From Asaia sp. W19 (GTDB lineage Bacteria > Pseudomonadota > Alphaproteobacteria > Acetobacterales > Acetobacteraceae), in NCBI RefSeq assembly GCF_003994335.1, contig NZ_PNQZ01000019.1, positions 62,002 through 126,001 of the forward strand: 64,000 nucleotides of DNA. The letters are read 5' to 3'. The number at the start of each line of letters is the position of its first letter. Positions within the stretch are counted from its first letter, which is position 1. Below the pieces are notes generated by a model. The model ran no database searches and was not told the DNA's origin. It was given only the letters and a program-made list of their open reading frames with translations. This document shows positions 53,921-61,410 of the stretch, piece after piece. The translations under genes were made by a program, and so were the position numbers.

Positions 53921-55600
53921 ATGCGCCTTCGGCTGGTATATGTCGTTGCGATGATGATCTTCTTCGTCATCTACAAGGTTCTTGATCCCCTTGGGCTCGA
54001 GAGCGCAACGAAGCAGACATCTGCGGGATTATTCAATGCGCTCACCGCCCCTTTCTACGGCGCGGGCGACCCTGATTCCCACCGCCATGTCGCAGTGGTC
54101 GAAATCAACGATCAGACGCTCCGACGTTTCGGCACTGCATTTCCACTCTCCTACACGCGCCATGTATCGATCCTGAACCAGATACTCGACGCTCACCCGG
54201 CAGCGATCTTTGTCGACTTCCGCATGATGCGCGAACTGCCCGGAGAGAGTCTCGACAGCTTCACCCCTGTCATCGCACGGGCACGCGTGATGAATGTTCC
54301 GCTTCTCTTCGCCCGTGGGGAAGCAGGAGACGGGCAGGCCGCCCTTCCCCCACAGCTTCGTCCGTCGCAGGTCTACAGCAACGGCCTCGAAAGCACTGGC
54401 ACCTATCCGCTTGTCGATGAGGATGCGGCTTCCGAAGACGGGGACGCCCCCTTCAAGGCAGTCAATCCTGCCTGGGCACTTTATGCGCAGCTTTGCCACC
54501 AAGGCTGGCGCGCAAAGTGCAACGCAATTGATACTCATGACTTCACCCGTCCCATGGTGATTCGCTGGGGTTTGGCCCCCGATCCGGCGCAGGATCAGGT
54601 CAGCGACCTCCGGGAGAGCTGGCAACGCGATTGTGGGGGGTGGCTGTTCCGTTCATGCACCCGACTGTATGCAGCTTCGCGTCTTGCTCTGAACTATCTT
54701 TTCTTCCACTCCAAAGGGAGCGTCAGGCATTTCGCCTTTTATCCCCTGGTGATGGGTGCCGAGCAGCTTGGCCACAGCGCGCGTGATGCCCCCCCCGGTA
54801 GCCCGCCGCTTTCAGCACTCATGACTGGGCGGGCCGTCTTTTACGGTTCGGATATCCGCGACCAGCATGACGATACCATCGTGCCCCTGCTTGGGCGGAT
54901 CCCTGGTGTCGTCACCCATGCCATGGCTTTCGATAATCTCGTAACCTATGGCCCGCGCTACTTCCACGAGCCGCCCGAGATCGCACAACTGGGATGGCTG
55001 AGACTGGACAAGGCCGAGCTGCTCGAGGCCCTGATCTGGCTCGTGTGTAGCGTGGCGCTCGTCATGCGGCTCAAGCCGGCGCGACGGGGCGAGGCAGACG
55101 AAACCTACAGGCAGAGCCCCGAGACCCATCATCATGCCTTGCGCTGGACACAAGGCAGACGGCGACGCAGCGTCGCCTGCGCTCTGGCCGCAGCAGTCAC
55201 TGTTGCGCTTCCGGCTGCCTCCGAACTTTCGCCCGACATGCTTATGGATCTCGTCATCATCTGGCTTTTCGTGACCCTGCTTTTCATCGGGGCATGGGCC
55301 ATGCCCCCACGACGCCCCGCGAGCGAGGCCCCGGGCGAGGAAGAGCGCGGCCTGACATCACAACTCTGCTTTTTGGCCAGTCTGGCCGCGATAGGCTTCG
55401 CTCTGAATGAGGCTGGTCCACGATGGCCGAATGCCGACTGGATCGGCCTGCTCCTGCTCTGGCTCGCCGCCGGGGTGGAAGAGGAACAGGAGCGCAATCG
55501 CTTCGTTCAGCCGCTCTGCCGTTTTCTGAACCGGCTAATCGATCTCCCGCGCGACACGAGCCGGGCAGTTCGGACACGACTTGCACAGTTCAGAGGATAG
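53921..55600 (+). CDS. CHASE2-domain membrane protein without output domain
   Basis: 559 residues. An N-terminal helix (LRLVYVVAMMIFFVIYKVL) is followed by a large periplasmic CHASE2 sensory domain (about 30-365): VAVVEINDQTLRRFG, HPAAIFVDFRMM and GRAVFYGSDIRDQHDD are typical. Four or five membrane helices close the protein (from WLVCSVALVMRL onward). No kinase, cyclase or GGDEF domain follows, so it must signal through a partner. The start MRLRLVYVVAM has GGAGG 9 bases upstream; an ATG 13 codons earlier is the alternative. It heads a plus-strand run with an SH3-like and an M48 protein. Confidence 0.85.
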   Translation: MRLRLVYVVAMMIFFVIYKVLDPLGLESATKQTSAGLFNALTAPFYGAGDPDSHRHVAVVEINDQTLRRFGTAFPLSYTRHVSILNQILDAHPAAIFVDFRMMRELPGESLDSFTPVIARARVMNVPLLFARGEAGDGQAALPPQLRPSQVYSNGLESTGTYPLVDEDAASEDGDAPFKAVNPAWALYAQLCHQGWRAKCNAIDTHDFTRPMVIRWGLAPDPAQDQVSDLRESWQRDCGGWLFRSCTRLYAASRLALNYLFFHSKGSVRHFAFYPLVMGAEQLGHSARDAPPGSPPLSALMTGRAVFYGSDIRDQHDDTIVPLLGRIPGVVTHAMAFDNLVTYGPRYFHEPPEIAQLGWLRLDKAELLEALIWLVCSVALVMRLKPARRGEADETYRQSPETHHHALRWTQGRRRRSVACALAAAVTVALPAASELSPDMLMDLVIIWLFVTLLFIGAWAMPPRRPASEAPGEEERGLTSQLCFLASLAAIGFALNEAGPRWPNADWIGLLLLWLAAGVEEEQERNRFVQPLCRFLNRLIDLPRDTSRAVRTRLAQFRG

Positions 55601-55674
55601 GTCCCCCCCCCCCTGGTTTTACCCCGTGCAATGGCTCTGCCCGGTTCTTTCCCACTGGATGAAAGGAGACCCTC

Positions 55675-56118
55675 ATGACCAAACGCTTTTCCAGTCCGAC
55701 GCCAGGCGCGTCAGACCGCCCGCAATCACAACAGAAATCATGCCGCGTCAGCCTCGCAGGGATTCTATCCGTGATGATTGTCCTGCTAACCCAGCCGGGT
55801 GTTGCTGCAACGGCGCCCGTCATCAAGGGCACTTATAACACCCCCTCCATTCAGGCCTATGACCGCAACGGCCAGCCCACCACCCGGGTCGAGGCGGCTT
55901 CTCTGACCGGCCATCGCGTGATCGCCAAGGATCCATCCACCGATATGCTCGCAGTCGAGACCGACAAGGGTGTCGTTTACGTCACCGAGGATTCCGTCGA
56001 GGCCGAGATTGGAGCTGTCGCGCCCACGCCTACGCAATGCGTGCAGATCGGCGCCGCCTCCACCGACGAAGTCGGCGGCAGCACAAACAACCTCGGCCGC
56101 AACTGTCATGGAAGCTGA
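55675..56118 (+). CDS. Exported small protein with SH3-like beta region
   Basis: 147 residues. A long polar n-region (about 25 residues) and hydrophobic VSLAGILSVMIVLLTQPGVAATA look like a signal peptide with cleavage after AxA. The middle (IQAYDRNGQPTTRVEAASLTGH through VVYVTEDSVEAEI) has the short beta pattern of bacterial SH3-like domains. The C-terminus carries two Cys about 20 residues apart that may form a disulfide. It ends exactly where the M48 gene begins (TGAATG), so the two are co-translated. No family name is known to me. Confidence 0.75.
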   Translation: MTKRFSSPTPGASDRPQSQQKSCRVSLAGILSVMIVLLTQPGVAATAPVIKGTYNTPSIQAYDRNGQPTTRVEAASLTGHRVIAKDPSTDMLAVETDKGVVYVTEDSVEAEIGAVAPTPTQCVQIGAASTDEVGGSTNNLGRNCHGS

Positions 56119-57576
56119 ATGATGTATGCACCATCCCGTCCACTGGCTGCGCTGCTCAGCCTCCTGACCCTCAACGCCTGCGCCGGAGAGGGCGGTAGCG
56201 GGATTCCCACCAGCGGACGCCTGATCGATCAGACGCATCCTCCTCAGGACTACGCGCAGGCTACGACCGTGCAGGGACTGTTGAGCCCAGCAAACACGCT
56301 GGCATCGGGAGTGATCGAGGCCCCTCAGGTGTCGGCCTACCCTCAGGAGATCGTCGACCGATTGCTCAATGGCTGGTCCGGCCCTAAGCCGGATGCGCGC
56401 GTCTGGCTGACGCCTGATATGGCCTTCACATCGGATGTATCGGTCGGAGGCGCCATATTCCTCAATACCGGACTGATCCGCTATTTCCACGATACGCCGG
56501 ATATCCAGAAGGAAGATGCCCTGGCTTTCGTGCTGGCGCATGAATTGTCACACATCCTGTTGGGCCATACGGCTGCGCAACGCGCAAGCAAGGCGCGCAA
56601 GGACTATGCTTTCAGCGCCATGAAATGGGGGTCCGTTATTGGTCGCTTCGCTGCTGGCAGTGGGGCTGCAGGCGATGTCAGCAGGGCCATCGTCTCTTCC
56701 ATGGGCGCCAAGGCCTTTCTTGATACGACCCTGTTCCCCTCATGGTCGCGTGATCAGGAAGAGCAGGCCGACGCGCTCGCTGTCGATCTGATGGCGCGTG
56801 CAGGCTATGCCGTCAGTGCTGCAACAGATGTGATGGACGTCCTGATCAGTTCTGAAGATCAGGAGATGCAACGTCAGGCACAGGACGAGCAGAAGACAGG
56901 CAAGAGCTTTGTCGCAGACTCCGTTACCTTCCAGGCGAAAGCAGGGGACGGACTGGATGGGGCAATTGTGGACGCGCTCAGAGCGGTTGCCCAGCAGCAC
57001 CCTCATGCACGCGAGAGACGTGTCGCCCTGGCGGCCTACCTACGCCAGGCCTATCCGGTACGCGCCCATGTCGCACTCGAACGCAGGCCCTTGCAACAAT
57101 GGGAGTCCAGTCGCCCCGTCGCTGCACTGCTCAAGGGCACGGAACAGCTCAATCAGGCAGCCGTTCAGATCAAATCGGCCCAGTGGGGTCAGGCCCGACA
57201 GACATTGGCCCATGTCGCCCAGCCCGCCAGCGGAAGCGCCTATTACGCGCTCATGGCGTATCAGGTATCCACGCAAACCGGACAGAAGGCCCAGGGGGTC
57301 AAGCTGCTTTCCGCAGCGGCACAGCGCGATGACGTCACGTTCCCGATCGCGACGGAATGGGGCATGGCTCTGACATCTGCCGGCAAGTACAATGAGGCAG
57401 AAACATATATGGCCACCGAACAGACGGCCATGAACAATACGAGCTTCCTCCCTTACCGCATCACAAACGCCCGCAAGGCCAAGGACGAGGTGAACGCCTT
57501 CAAGCTTTCGGCGATCTGTGAGGGACTGGGCGAAGACGCCCTTGCCAAGCAATGTTCTGCCGTCGAAAAGAACTGA
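56119..57576 (+). CDS. M48-family metalloprotease lipoprotein with TPR-like C-terminus
   Basis: 485 residues. Lipobox LTLNAC puts the lipidated Cys at 21. The zinc site is HELSH at 141-145, with the third ligand in RDQEEQADALAV (about 214-218). The C-terminal part (residues 290-480) has repeating helical pairs like tetratricopeptide repeats, as in BepA, which assists outer-membrane protein assembly. It should act in the periplasm, anchored to a membrane. Joint translation with the SH3-like protein suggests a protease and its partner. Confidence 0.9.
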   Translation: MMYAPSRPLAALLSLLTLNACAGEGGSGIPTSGRLIDQTHPPQDYAQATTVQGLLSPANTLASGVIEAPQVSAYPQEIVDRLLNGWSGPKPDARVWLTPDMAFTSDVSVGGAIFLNTGLIRYFHDTPDIQKEDALAFVLAHELSHILLGHTAAQRASKARKDYAFSAMKWGSVIGRFAAGSGAAGDVSRAIVSSMGAKAFLDTTLFPSWSRDQEEQADALAVDLMARAGYAVSAATDVMDVLISSEDQEMQRQAQDEQKTGKSFVADSVTFQAKAGDGLDGAIVDALRAVAQQHPHARERRVALAAYLRQAYPVRAHVALERRPLQQWESSRPVAALLKGTEQLNQAAVQIKSAQWGQARQTLAHVAQPASGSAYYALMAYQVSTQTGQKAQGVKLLSAAAQRDDVTFPIATEWGMALTSAGKYNEAETYMATEQTAMNNTSFLPYRITNARKAKDEVNAFKLSAICEGLGEDALAKQCSAVEKN

Positions 57577-57858
57577 CAGCCCTGCTGCCCGGTGATTTCA
57601 GCCGAAACCTCTGGGCACGCATGCAATAGGGGCACGTTTTGACCATACTCGCTAGTTTCGCCCGCGCCGGCCGGCAGCGCGCCTGACCGTATGGTTGGGC
57701 ATCAGCTGCCCAAAGAATACGGGACAGACTTGATTTGACTTGGATATTGTCGTGCCCATGCTGCACTATGCGTTGCCAATGCCAATACTGCCGCTAAATA
57801 TTCAAAGTCTCGTCTTTGTCCGAGAATAAAAATAGCGGTTAGAAGGACCGATTGCACC

Positions 57859-58773
57859 ATGTCTTTCCCAGAACTCCCGCCCCGCAAGACGCTTCCCATC
57901 CCGCCTCGCCTCCCCTCCGGCGTGATCAAGATCGGTGTCGTTGCTCTGGGCGCCGTTGCCGTGATCGCAATCCTGAATCCGTTCTACCAGATCGCCTCGG
58001 GCTATTGCGGCATTCTGACCAATTTCGGCTCGGTGCAGCCCACTGCGCTCGAGCCCGGTCTGCATATCGCGATACCGGTCTATCAGAAGATCATCTCCGT
58101 CTCCACGCAGCCACAGACCATCACCTCGCATGAACAGGCTGCAACGCATGACCTTCAGGATGTCCGCACCTCCGTATCGGTCACGTTCCATATTGCCTCC
58201 GCCGATGCGCCGGGGTTCTTCCGCGATTTCCGCACACTTGATGTTCTCGCGCGCCGGATCATCGAGCCCACGGTCTCGAACGATGTGAAAGCGATCACCG
58301 CCAATTATAATGCGGAAGAGCTGATCACGAAGCGCGACCTGGTGGATGGTCAGATCAAGGATCTGATCATTCGCTCGCTTCAGCCCTATCATCTGACCAT
58401 TCATTCCGTGAACACGGCCAACTTCGCGTTTTCGACCGCCTACGCGCAGGCCATCGAAGCGAAGCAGGTGGCTCAGCAACAGGCATTGCAGGCCCAGTAC
58501 ACGTTGCAACAGACCCAGATCTCGGCGCAGGCTCAGGTGGTTCAGGCCAAGGCGCAGGCCGATGCCGCCGTCGCAACGGCACAGGGACAGGCCCAGGCGC
58601 TGCTTGTGACGTCTCAGGCGCAGGCTAAGGCGAACAGTCTCGTCTCGCAATCCCTGACACCGGCCCTGTTGCAGCAAAAGGCGCTGGATCGCTGGTCGGG
58701 TACCATGCCGACCTATCTGAGCGCAGGCGCCCCCCTCCCCTTCATCGGCTCGATGGAGTCCGTTCAGAAATAG
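57859..58773 (+). CDS. SPFH/Band 7 (prohibitin-like) membrane protein
   Basis: 304 residues. One N-terminal helix (VIKIGVVALGAVAVIAILNPF) precedes the SPFH domain (about 45-220; GILTNFGSVQPTALEPGLH, DVRTSVSVTFHI). A Gln/Ala-rich coiled-coil follows (about 195-270; VAQQQALQAQYTLQQTQ). Bacterial prohibitin-like proteins form rings that control membrane proteases such as FtsH. The gene is 282 bases after the M48 protease and on the same strand, so a shared envelope quality-control task is plausible. Confidence 0.92.
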   Translation: MSFPELPPRKTLPIPPRLPSGVIKIGVVALGAVAVIAILNPFYQIASGYCGILTNFGSVQPTALEPGLHIAIPVYQKIISVSTQPQTITSHEQAATHDLQDVRTSVSVTFHIASADAPGFFRDFRTLDVLARRIIEPTVSNDVKAITANYNAEELITKRDLVDGQIKDLIIRSLQPYHLTIHSVNTANFAFSTAYAQAIEAKQVAQQQALQAQYTLQQTQISAQAQVVQAKAQADAAVATAQGQAQALLVTSQAQAKANSLVSQSLTPALLQQKALDRWSGTMPTYLSAGAPLPFIGSMESVQK

Positions 58774-59340: not shown

Positions 59341-61005
<1,665 letters not shown>

Positions 61006-61034
61006 TCAGTGTGCGAAGATGGGGAGACTGGAAA

Positions 61035-61325
61035 TCAGCCGATCACACCCATGATGTCGCTTTCCTTCATGATCAGCAGCTCTTCGCCGTTGATCTTCAC
61101 CTCGGTGCCGGACCACTTGCCGAACAGCACACGGTCGCCAGCCTTGACGTCCAGTGCCACGAGCTGACCCTGCTCATTACGGGCGCCCGAACCAACGGAG
61201 ACGACTTCGCCTTCCATCGGCTTTTCCTTGGCGGTGTCCGGAATGATGATACCACCGGCCGTCTTCTGCTCGCCCTCAAGGCGGCGAACGACGACACGGT
61301 CATGCAAAGGCCGAAAATTTGTCAT
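61035..61325 (-). CDS. groS: Co-chaperonin GroES
   Basis: 96 residues. Caps the GroEL ring. Landmarks: [33 protein letters not shown], with the mobile loop, and [30 protein letters not shown]. The start [10 protein letters not shown] has GGAG upstream; five extra codons before it were rejected. A CIRCE element lies about 90 bases upstream. Confidence 0.97.
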
Positions 61326-61410
61326 TATGGATCGCTCCACTTTTCTCTAAGGCGGCGTCCTTGCTCAAAAGCAACGCCGCCGGTTTGCGCGCCCGCTCAG
61401 CCGCAGCGCG

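Follow-up and report, generated by a model that had tools for sequence, protein, structure and literature searches.

In the 64,000-nucleotide stretch of the Asaia sp. W19 genome analysed here (the window), a gene coding for a CHASE2 protein is followed by genes for a small exported SH3-like protein and for an M48 zinc metalloprotease, and our data indicate that these three genes almost certainly constitute one unit. This module reaches well beyond the Acetobacteraceae, and is found in the same gene order among distantly related bacteria. As families, CHASE2 receptors, M48 proteases and bacterial SH3 proteins have all been described; the cassette built from them is itself without a description that we could find in the open-licence literature, which misses most subscription journals, and within that scope the statement of a preliminary description of this DNA, that no system of such composition was on record, holds. 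The same description had proposed a single envelope unit of four genes, the fourth coding for an SPFH protein. The evidence presented below supports the trio and argues against the inclusion of the SPFH gene.

A collection of species genomes was scanned with a CHASE2 alignment, which returned 85 relatives, and the best 80 were taken as named loci (L numbers). These loci were selected on CHASE2, via a pattern derived from the module, and not on M48. They belong to Asaia, Komagataeibacter, Acetobacter, Acidiphilium, Roseicella, Novispirillum, many Pseudomonas, Xanthomonas, Luteimonas, Alteromonas, Paraburkholderia, Duganella and others. An M48 gene lies downstream of CHASE2 on the same strand in 76 of the 80, and in the other four (L144, L161, L163 and L165) the contig continues for 50 to 754 bases past CHASE2 and stops before or inside the M48 gene. 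A script recognised a small open reading frame (ORF) with a terminal cysteine pattern between the two genes in 76/80 loci; by eye, it is also present in L161, appears without its last cysteine in L144 and L152, and is cut in L163. In the 120 genomes sampled from the family, protein searches recovered the trio together in the window genome (G000), G060 and G096, at 27-38% identity, and reading of the ORFs added G024, G102 and G112; a further CHASE2 match, in G113 (E=4.3e-5), was dropped because other genes occupy that locus. A survey of the class matched 66 genomes, and in the nine followed up besides that of the window both the small protein and the M48 protease were present (9/9). Scattered, unlinked homologues of the three genes, the outcome that would have told against linkage, were not seen in related genomes. 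The sole rearranged module that we encountered is in L215 (6697-10595), where the CHASE2 gene is oriented divergently relative to those of the small protein and M48.

The association was then assayed on 398 genomes of the phylum, with E values limited to 1e-20 and 1e-12, and no more than three or four candidates scored in each genome. With the M48 profile, seven top loci scored at E<=1.9e-46, the next one being at 3.9e-35; with the CHASE2 profile, seven top loci scored at E<=5.8e-55, followed by one at 6.5e-13. The seven top M48 and the seven top CHASE2 genes are the same seven adjacent pairs, including that of the window, and therefore the module is patchy (7/398) yet one-to-one. In addition, the distances in the trees of the three proteins, compared over 43 loci, are correlated (CHASE2/M48, r=0.868; M48/small protein, 0.690; CHASE2/small protein, 0.638), while the highest value among 999 permutations was 0.20. 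Taken together, the seven shared pairs and the agreement of the trees led us to reject a chance linkage of the trio. Within the trees, Pseudomonas holds two distant module lineages (L104-type and L106/L110-type loci), and Novispirillum (L132) clusters with gammaproteobacterial copies in both trees, a placement that hints at a possible transfer of the module as a unit. A conserved fourth gene was searched for by clustering the neighbouring ORFs of at least 90 amino acids (aa) over 83 loci (the 80 named loci plus L053, L055 and L056), and was rejected: the large clusters reflect Pseudomonas synteny, while the wider ones (12, 8, 7 and 7 loci) occur on both strands and at varying distances.

As many loci derive from closely related Pseudomonas, the 79 complete loci (75 named loci, the window, L053, L055 and L056) were reduced to 44 at 80% M48 identity. 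The resulting alignments of the small protein (A4), CHASE2 (A5) and M48 (A6) contain 44 rows each; L095 is included and L056 left out in A4 and A5, and the reverse holds for A6.

The CHASE2 protein of the window matches PF05226 over residues 44-377 with 42.7 bits (cut-off 26.3; E=6.4e-11 for the longer ORF). Its architecture comprises an N-terminal hydrophobic helix, the CHASE2 domain and hydrophobic C-terminal helices, the segments detected by hydropathy being 1-26, 364-385, 418-463 and 477-495. A Pfam output domain (kinase, cyclase or GGDEF) was found in none of the 44 CHASE2 proteins of A5, including that of the window; CHASE2 is the sole domain common to all of them, and two unrelated families match one member each (E=0.0026 and 0.0048). 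Across these diverse rows, 13 columns besides the start are invariant, and two cysteine positions are conserved in 43/44 and 40/44 rows. The structural model has a predicted local distance difference test score (pLDDT) of 83.6. Searches for a known fold gave at best E=0.18 in Foldseek, a Z of 4.7 in VIA-align and E=0.38 with a sequence profile; they were run on all 559 residues, rather than on the domain alone, and poor matches of this kind do not establish a new fold. A second, weaker CHASE2-like match, under the Pfam cut-off, occurs elsewhere in the window genome, in a 983-aa frame (C35:214153-214311).

The 147-aa protein starts with what reads by eye as a signal peptide, and it matches no Pfam family above cut-off, bacterial SH3 families included; among its 44 homologues, SH3_4 is matched in four and SH3_3 in three, with E up to 0.1. 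Its model displays a confident barrel resembling bacterial SH3 domains (residues 46-111, with pLDDT >90 across most of 51-110). The best structural match is the SH3 part of an NlpC enzyme (Z 7.8; root-mean-square deviation 2.2; 62 residues aligned), and most of the other matches are SH3 domains as well, all with Z below 8 and none reaching E 0.001 in Foldseek. The C-terminal tail is modelled with low confidence and is flanked by two cysteines, C122 and C144, a pair kept in 44/44 rows of A4.

The M48 protein matches PF01435 with 73.6 bits (cut-off 20.3; E=2.3e-20), and carries the residues expected of an active site: HExxH at 141-145 (H141, E142 and H145), E214, and HPx4R at 294-300 (H294, P295 and R300). 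HExxH, E214, D218 and R300 are conserved in 44/44 rows of A6, and H294 in 42. A lipobox, LNAC, was recognised by eye at its N-terminus. The preliminary description had called this protease BepA-like. Its profile aligns with BepA (6ait) over the protease and the C-terminal parts, the C-terminal half being alignable with the tetratricopeptide part of BepA; the protein stays, however, far under the NCBIfam cut-off for BepA (NF052400, 49.4 bits vs 570), and also under that for LoiP (NF052399, 31.5 bits vs 365), and by this measure it is not a BepA. According to the excerpted text of PMC7950410, the BepA protease is gated by an HPx4R plug with H246; the conserved residue set of the window M48 corresponds to the pattern described there for the plug-regulated M48 type. 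A pair of C-terminal cysteines, C467 and C479, is likewise kept in 44/44 rows. Among the 30 best M48 loci of the phylum, this pair is present in 7/7 module proteases and in 0/23 others, of which two have a single late cysteine, one has four cysteines further in, and five adjoin a match to a CHASE2-cyclase protein.

This last association brings in a sister form of the module, with a different SH3 protein and a shorter M48. In genome G834 (L213, 5155-8359), a CHASE2 protein fused to a cyclase domain (PF00211) is followed by an SH3 protein and then by the shorter M48. Starting from the CHASE2-cyclase protein, 109 of 150 genomes of the same order gave a match, and among the best 30 loci, which were checked, the SH3 and M48 genes adjoin in 26. 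In 22 of these linked loci the match extends through the cyclase part (20 at full length, L242 in two frames and L245 cut by the contig end), and in the other four (L246, L247, L248 and L250) Pfam shows no domain besides CHASE2 at E up to 0.001, in proteins of 573-635 aa; here, either the output enzyme has been lost outside the lineage of the window, or the output is one that is not recognised. Starting from the sister SH3 protein, 45 of 150 genomes matched, and both neighbours, CHASE2 and M48, were present in 28 of the 30 loci checked. The same three ORFs occur in four loci of family f194 (L299-L302), and Pfam searches on seven proteins from three of these loci agree. In the sister operons (L213, L223-L245 and L299-L302), the tail of the SH3 protein is of the TTGVRGLSEEDL type and the M48 is short. 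When compared as profiles, the small proteins of the two forms can be aligned (probability 91.8, E=7.4e-7) along the barrel and on into a GVRG-type tail. Of the five sister M48s checked, none carries a cysteine past HExxH, and 0-2 cysteines occur among the first 340 residues of the corresponding CHASE2 frames. The two forms have CHASE2, M48 and an SH3-like protein in common, whereas a cytoplasmic enzyme is optional. Two observations on the sister loci were made by eye: upstream of the cyclase-type operon of G834 there is a further M48-like ORF, HtpX-like in appearance (L213, 3336-4286), and L293 and L225 apparently adjoin metF/ahcY.

On these grounds we infer a mechanism, to which we give our preference at somewhat under even confidence, whereby CHASE2, acting through the SH3-like protein as an adaptor, controls a plug-regulated protease of the envelope. 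The CHASE2 protein would lie in the inner membrane and sense an envelope condition with its domain exposed to the periplasm; the exported SH3-like protein would act as the adaptor linking it to the M48 protease, which, being lipoprotein-like, is probably held in the outer membrane; and contact with the adaptor would shift the HPx4R plug of the active site, switching the proteolysis of an envelope substrate on or off. The window CHASE2 protein lacks a recognised cytoplasmic enzyme, which suggests that proteolysis may itself be the output. Given that the enzyme is optional, being absent from the form found in the window and from four sister loci, proteolysis gated by CHASE2 via the adaptor would be the most economical output. 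A physical complex, the direction of control, a ligand, a substrate and the location of the protease are all postulates of this model. Since conserved cysteines are found in all three proteins, the contacts could perhaps be disulfide-linked. The fuller picture, in which a CHASE2 receptor without a cytoplasmic signalling domain acts across the envelope through such contacts with the SH3-like adaptor on the plug-regulated M48, and shares its ancestry with a cyclase sister form that would report the same event as cyclic AMP (cAMP), is in our judgement doubtful as a whole.

A number of observations weigh against a CHASE2-gated protease. A crude pattern finds no lipobox in 22/80 M48 proteins; L110, L131, L137 and L150 among these are lipoprotein-like by eye and others look soluble, so that anchoring in the outer membrane would not be general. 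The window, A. siamensis and A. astilbis sequences have an alanine at the second conserved CHASE2 cysteine position, which weakens the disulfide idea as a general one, and the last cysteine is apparently missing, by eye, from the small proteins of L144 and L152. In the sister form, SH3-M48 occurs without CHASE2 in 2/30 loci (L282 and L293), and CHASE2-cyclase without SH3-M48 in 4/30 (L225, L249, L251 and L252) as well as in L214. The two direct comparisons of the small protein with the sister SH3 protein diverge as well, a single sequence giving 17.9 and profiles 91.8. Finally, in the cyclase form the signal could flow in the opposite direction, from the protease to the sensor.

The main rival explanation starts from this last point: the M48 and SH3-like proteins would make or trim a periplasmic signal that is read by CHASE2, the cyclase form setting cAMP and the output-less form handing the signal on to a partner whose gene lies at another place. 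CHASE2 domains serve as the input side of receptors, and the CHASE2 cyclases of S. meliloti answer, according to the excerpted text of PMC13001267, a signal perceived through an outer-membrane protein; moreover, the cyclase is present in 22 of the 26 linked sister loci, in the same gene order. On the other hand, a Pfam output domain is found in neither the 44 proteins of the window form (0/44) nor the four sister loci with CHASE2 alone; nor does a fourth gene recur at a fixed position outside Pseudomonas synteny. We regard this reading as unlikely.

Less probable still, and in our opinion poorly compatible with the conservation of CHASE2, is a BepA-like quality control of outer-membrane proteins, with CHASE2 as a merely passive membrane anchor. 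The alignment of the M48 profile with BepA over the protease and C-terminal parts speaks for it, as does the action of BepA and YcaL on BAM-engaged substrates, reported in the excerpted text of PMC7950410. The NCBIfam BepA score given above speaks against it, and the 13 invariant CHASE2 columns would hardly be needed by a passive anchor.

With regard to the SPFH gene, the nine genomes of the genus were compared. CHASE2 is present in three of them (G000, G120 and G126), whereas SPFH orthologues (88-97% identity) occur in G121-G126, five of which have no CHASE2; the SPFH matches in G120 and G085 are weak only, and G085 has neither an SPFH orthologue nor CHASE2. Specifically, G121-G124 display the order ada, SPFH, groEL, with 211-397 bp between ada and SPFH and no CHASE2 or M48 match between them; in G125, 210 bp separate ada from SPFH, and groEL would lie past the end of the contig. 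In A. siamensis the trio is followed by SPFH, while in A. astilbis it is followed by groEL, with SPFH and ada absent from the locus. The place of the SPFH gene is thus not conserved even inside the genus, and we reject this gene as a member of the module, five Asaia genomes having ada-SPFH without the trio and A. astilbis having the trio without SPFH. Judging from these gene orders, the trio appears to have been gained or lost as a block, the two directions not being told apart. That all four genes, SPFH included, form one envelope-stress unit is most improbable. Their common strand, seen both in the window and in A. siamensis, speaks for such a unit; against it stand the gene orders of G121-G125 and of A. 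astilbis just described, the 282 bp that separate M48 from SPFH, and the fact that within the family sample the closest homologues of SPFH (G030, G054, G001, G009 and G053) belong to genomes without a CHASE2 match. Concerning the SPFH protein itself, it scores under the NCBIfam cut-offs for hflC (35.1 vs 134.4 bits) and hflK (33.1 vs 159.4). The ada-SPFH-groEL arrangement (SPFH at 57859-58773, followed by 59341-61340) is a conserved Asaia neighbourhood, in which SPFH stays next to the chaperonin genes.

Some known systems resemble parts of the cassette; those cited here are compared on the basis of excerpts of the papers. The BiofilmReg operon of Burkholderia contaminans (PMC5192318) already provides a case of a CHASE2 gene paired with that of a periplasmic partner, the protein encoded next to CHASE2 being an exported periplasmic one of the LysM/FecR type. 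In that operon, however, CHASE2 belongs to a histidine kinase with a response regulator, whereas in the window the CHASE2 protein is devoid of a kinase domain and the locus includes a protease gene downstream. The window locus falls outside BiofilmReg, as it shows no kinase domain and the flanking genes scanned are Ada, SH3-like, M48 and SPFH only. CyaD1, CyaD2 and CyaK of S. meliloti (PMC13001267) share the CHASE2 input with the window protein, and the cyclase with most sister loci; the window form differs in having no cyclase and in its SH3-like and M48 partners, the comparison with S. meliloti covering the proteins themselves. BepA of E. coli (PMC7950410) has in common with the window M48 the HExxH motif, the third ligand Glu, the HPx4R plug motif and an alignable C-terminal half, while the window protein is set apart by a score far under the family cut-off, the lipobox (by eye), the C-terminal cysteine pair and the fixed CHASE2 and SH3-like neighbours. 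In magnetotactic bacteria, MtxA (PMC4439547) is likewise a non-enzymatic protein encoded beside a CHASE2-cyclase gene; it differs in its Ig-like and TPR-like domains, and the excerpted text does not mention an M48. Among the open-licence papers searched, none joins 'CHASE2' with 'M48', and 'CHASE2' occurs with 'metalloprotease' only in PMC8195603, the excerpt of which deals with another subject.

The environmental factors to which CHASE2 domains respond were not known according to the excerpted text of a 2016 paper (PMC5192318). The fixed adaptor-like and protease partners make this largely open question of CHASE2 sensing directly testable. If the proposed control of the protease by CHASE2 were true, it would represent a receptor that has proteolysis within the envelope, and not a cytoplasmic messenger, as its output, and the cyclase sister form would offer a ready read-out.

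The coordinates of the four genes are reported in the table.

Table. Genes of the CHASE2-SH3-M48 module in the window and the SPFH gene that follows it.
Gene	Position	Strand	Remarks
CHASE2 protein	53921-55600	+	559 aa; PF05226; longest ORF begins at in-frame ATG 53819
SH3-like exported protein	55675-56118	+	147 aa; model barrel, without Pfam family
M48 zinc metalloprotease	56119-57576	+	485 aa; PF01435
SPFH/Band_7 protein	57859-58773	+	PF01145, E=6.3e-32; outside the module

The shared orientation of the four genes, as previously described, was confirmed, three of them matching Pfam families and the SH3-like one having a model barrel that resembles SH3 domains. The junction of the middle two genes has indeed zero bases, the stop codon TGA (56116-56118) being directly followed by the ATG at 56119. 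The SH3-like ORF is preceded by AGGAG and lies 74 bp downstream of CHASE2. Four promoter-like sites were found, against 1.8 expected, a result of little weight. No clear match to the PADLOC defence models was obtained, the marginal ones being M48 to Lit (E=0.005) and SPFH to PtuB (E=0.0016). As to a mobile origin, the window CHASE2 protein has no match in plasmid and phage collections, where the SH3-like and M48 proteins were not searched. The window genome (contig C112; 3.94 Mb) is listed with 8.08% contamination; the locus nevertheless looks genuine, because the DNA flanking the module is up to 98% identical to that of other Asaia genomes. Lastly, a run of 11 C (55603-55613), the longest C run of the window, is located between the CHASE2 and SH3-like genes, and may be prone to slippage or mark a weak spot in the sequencing.

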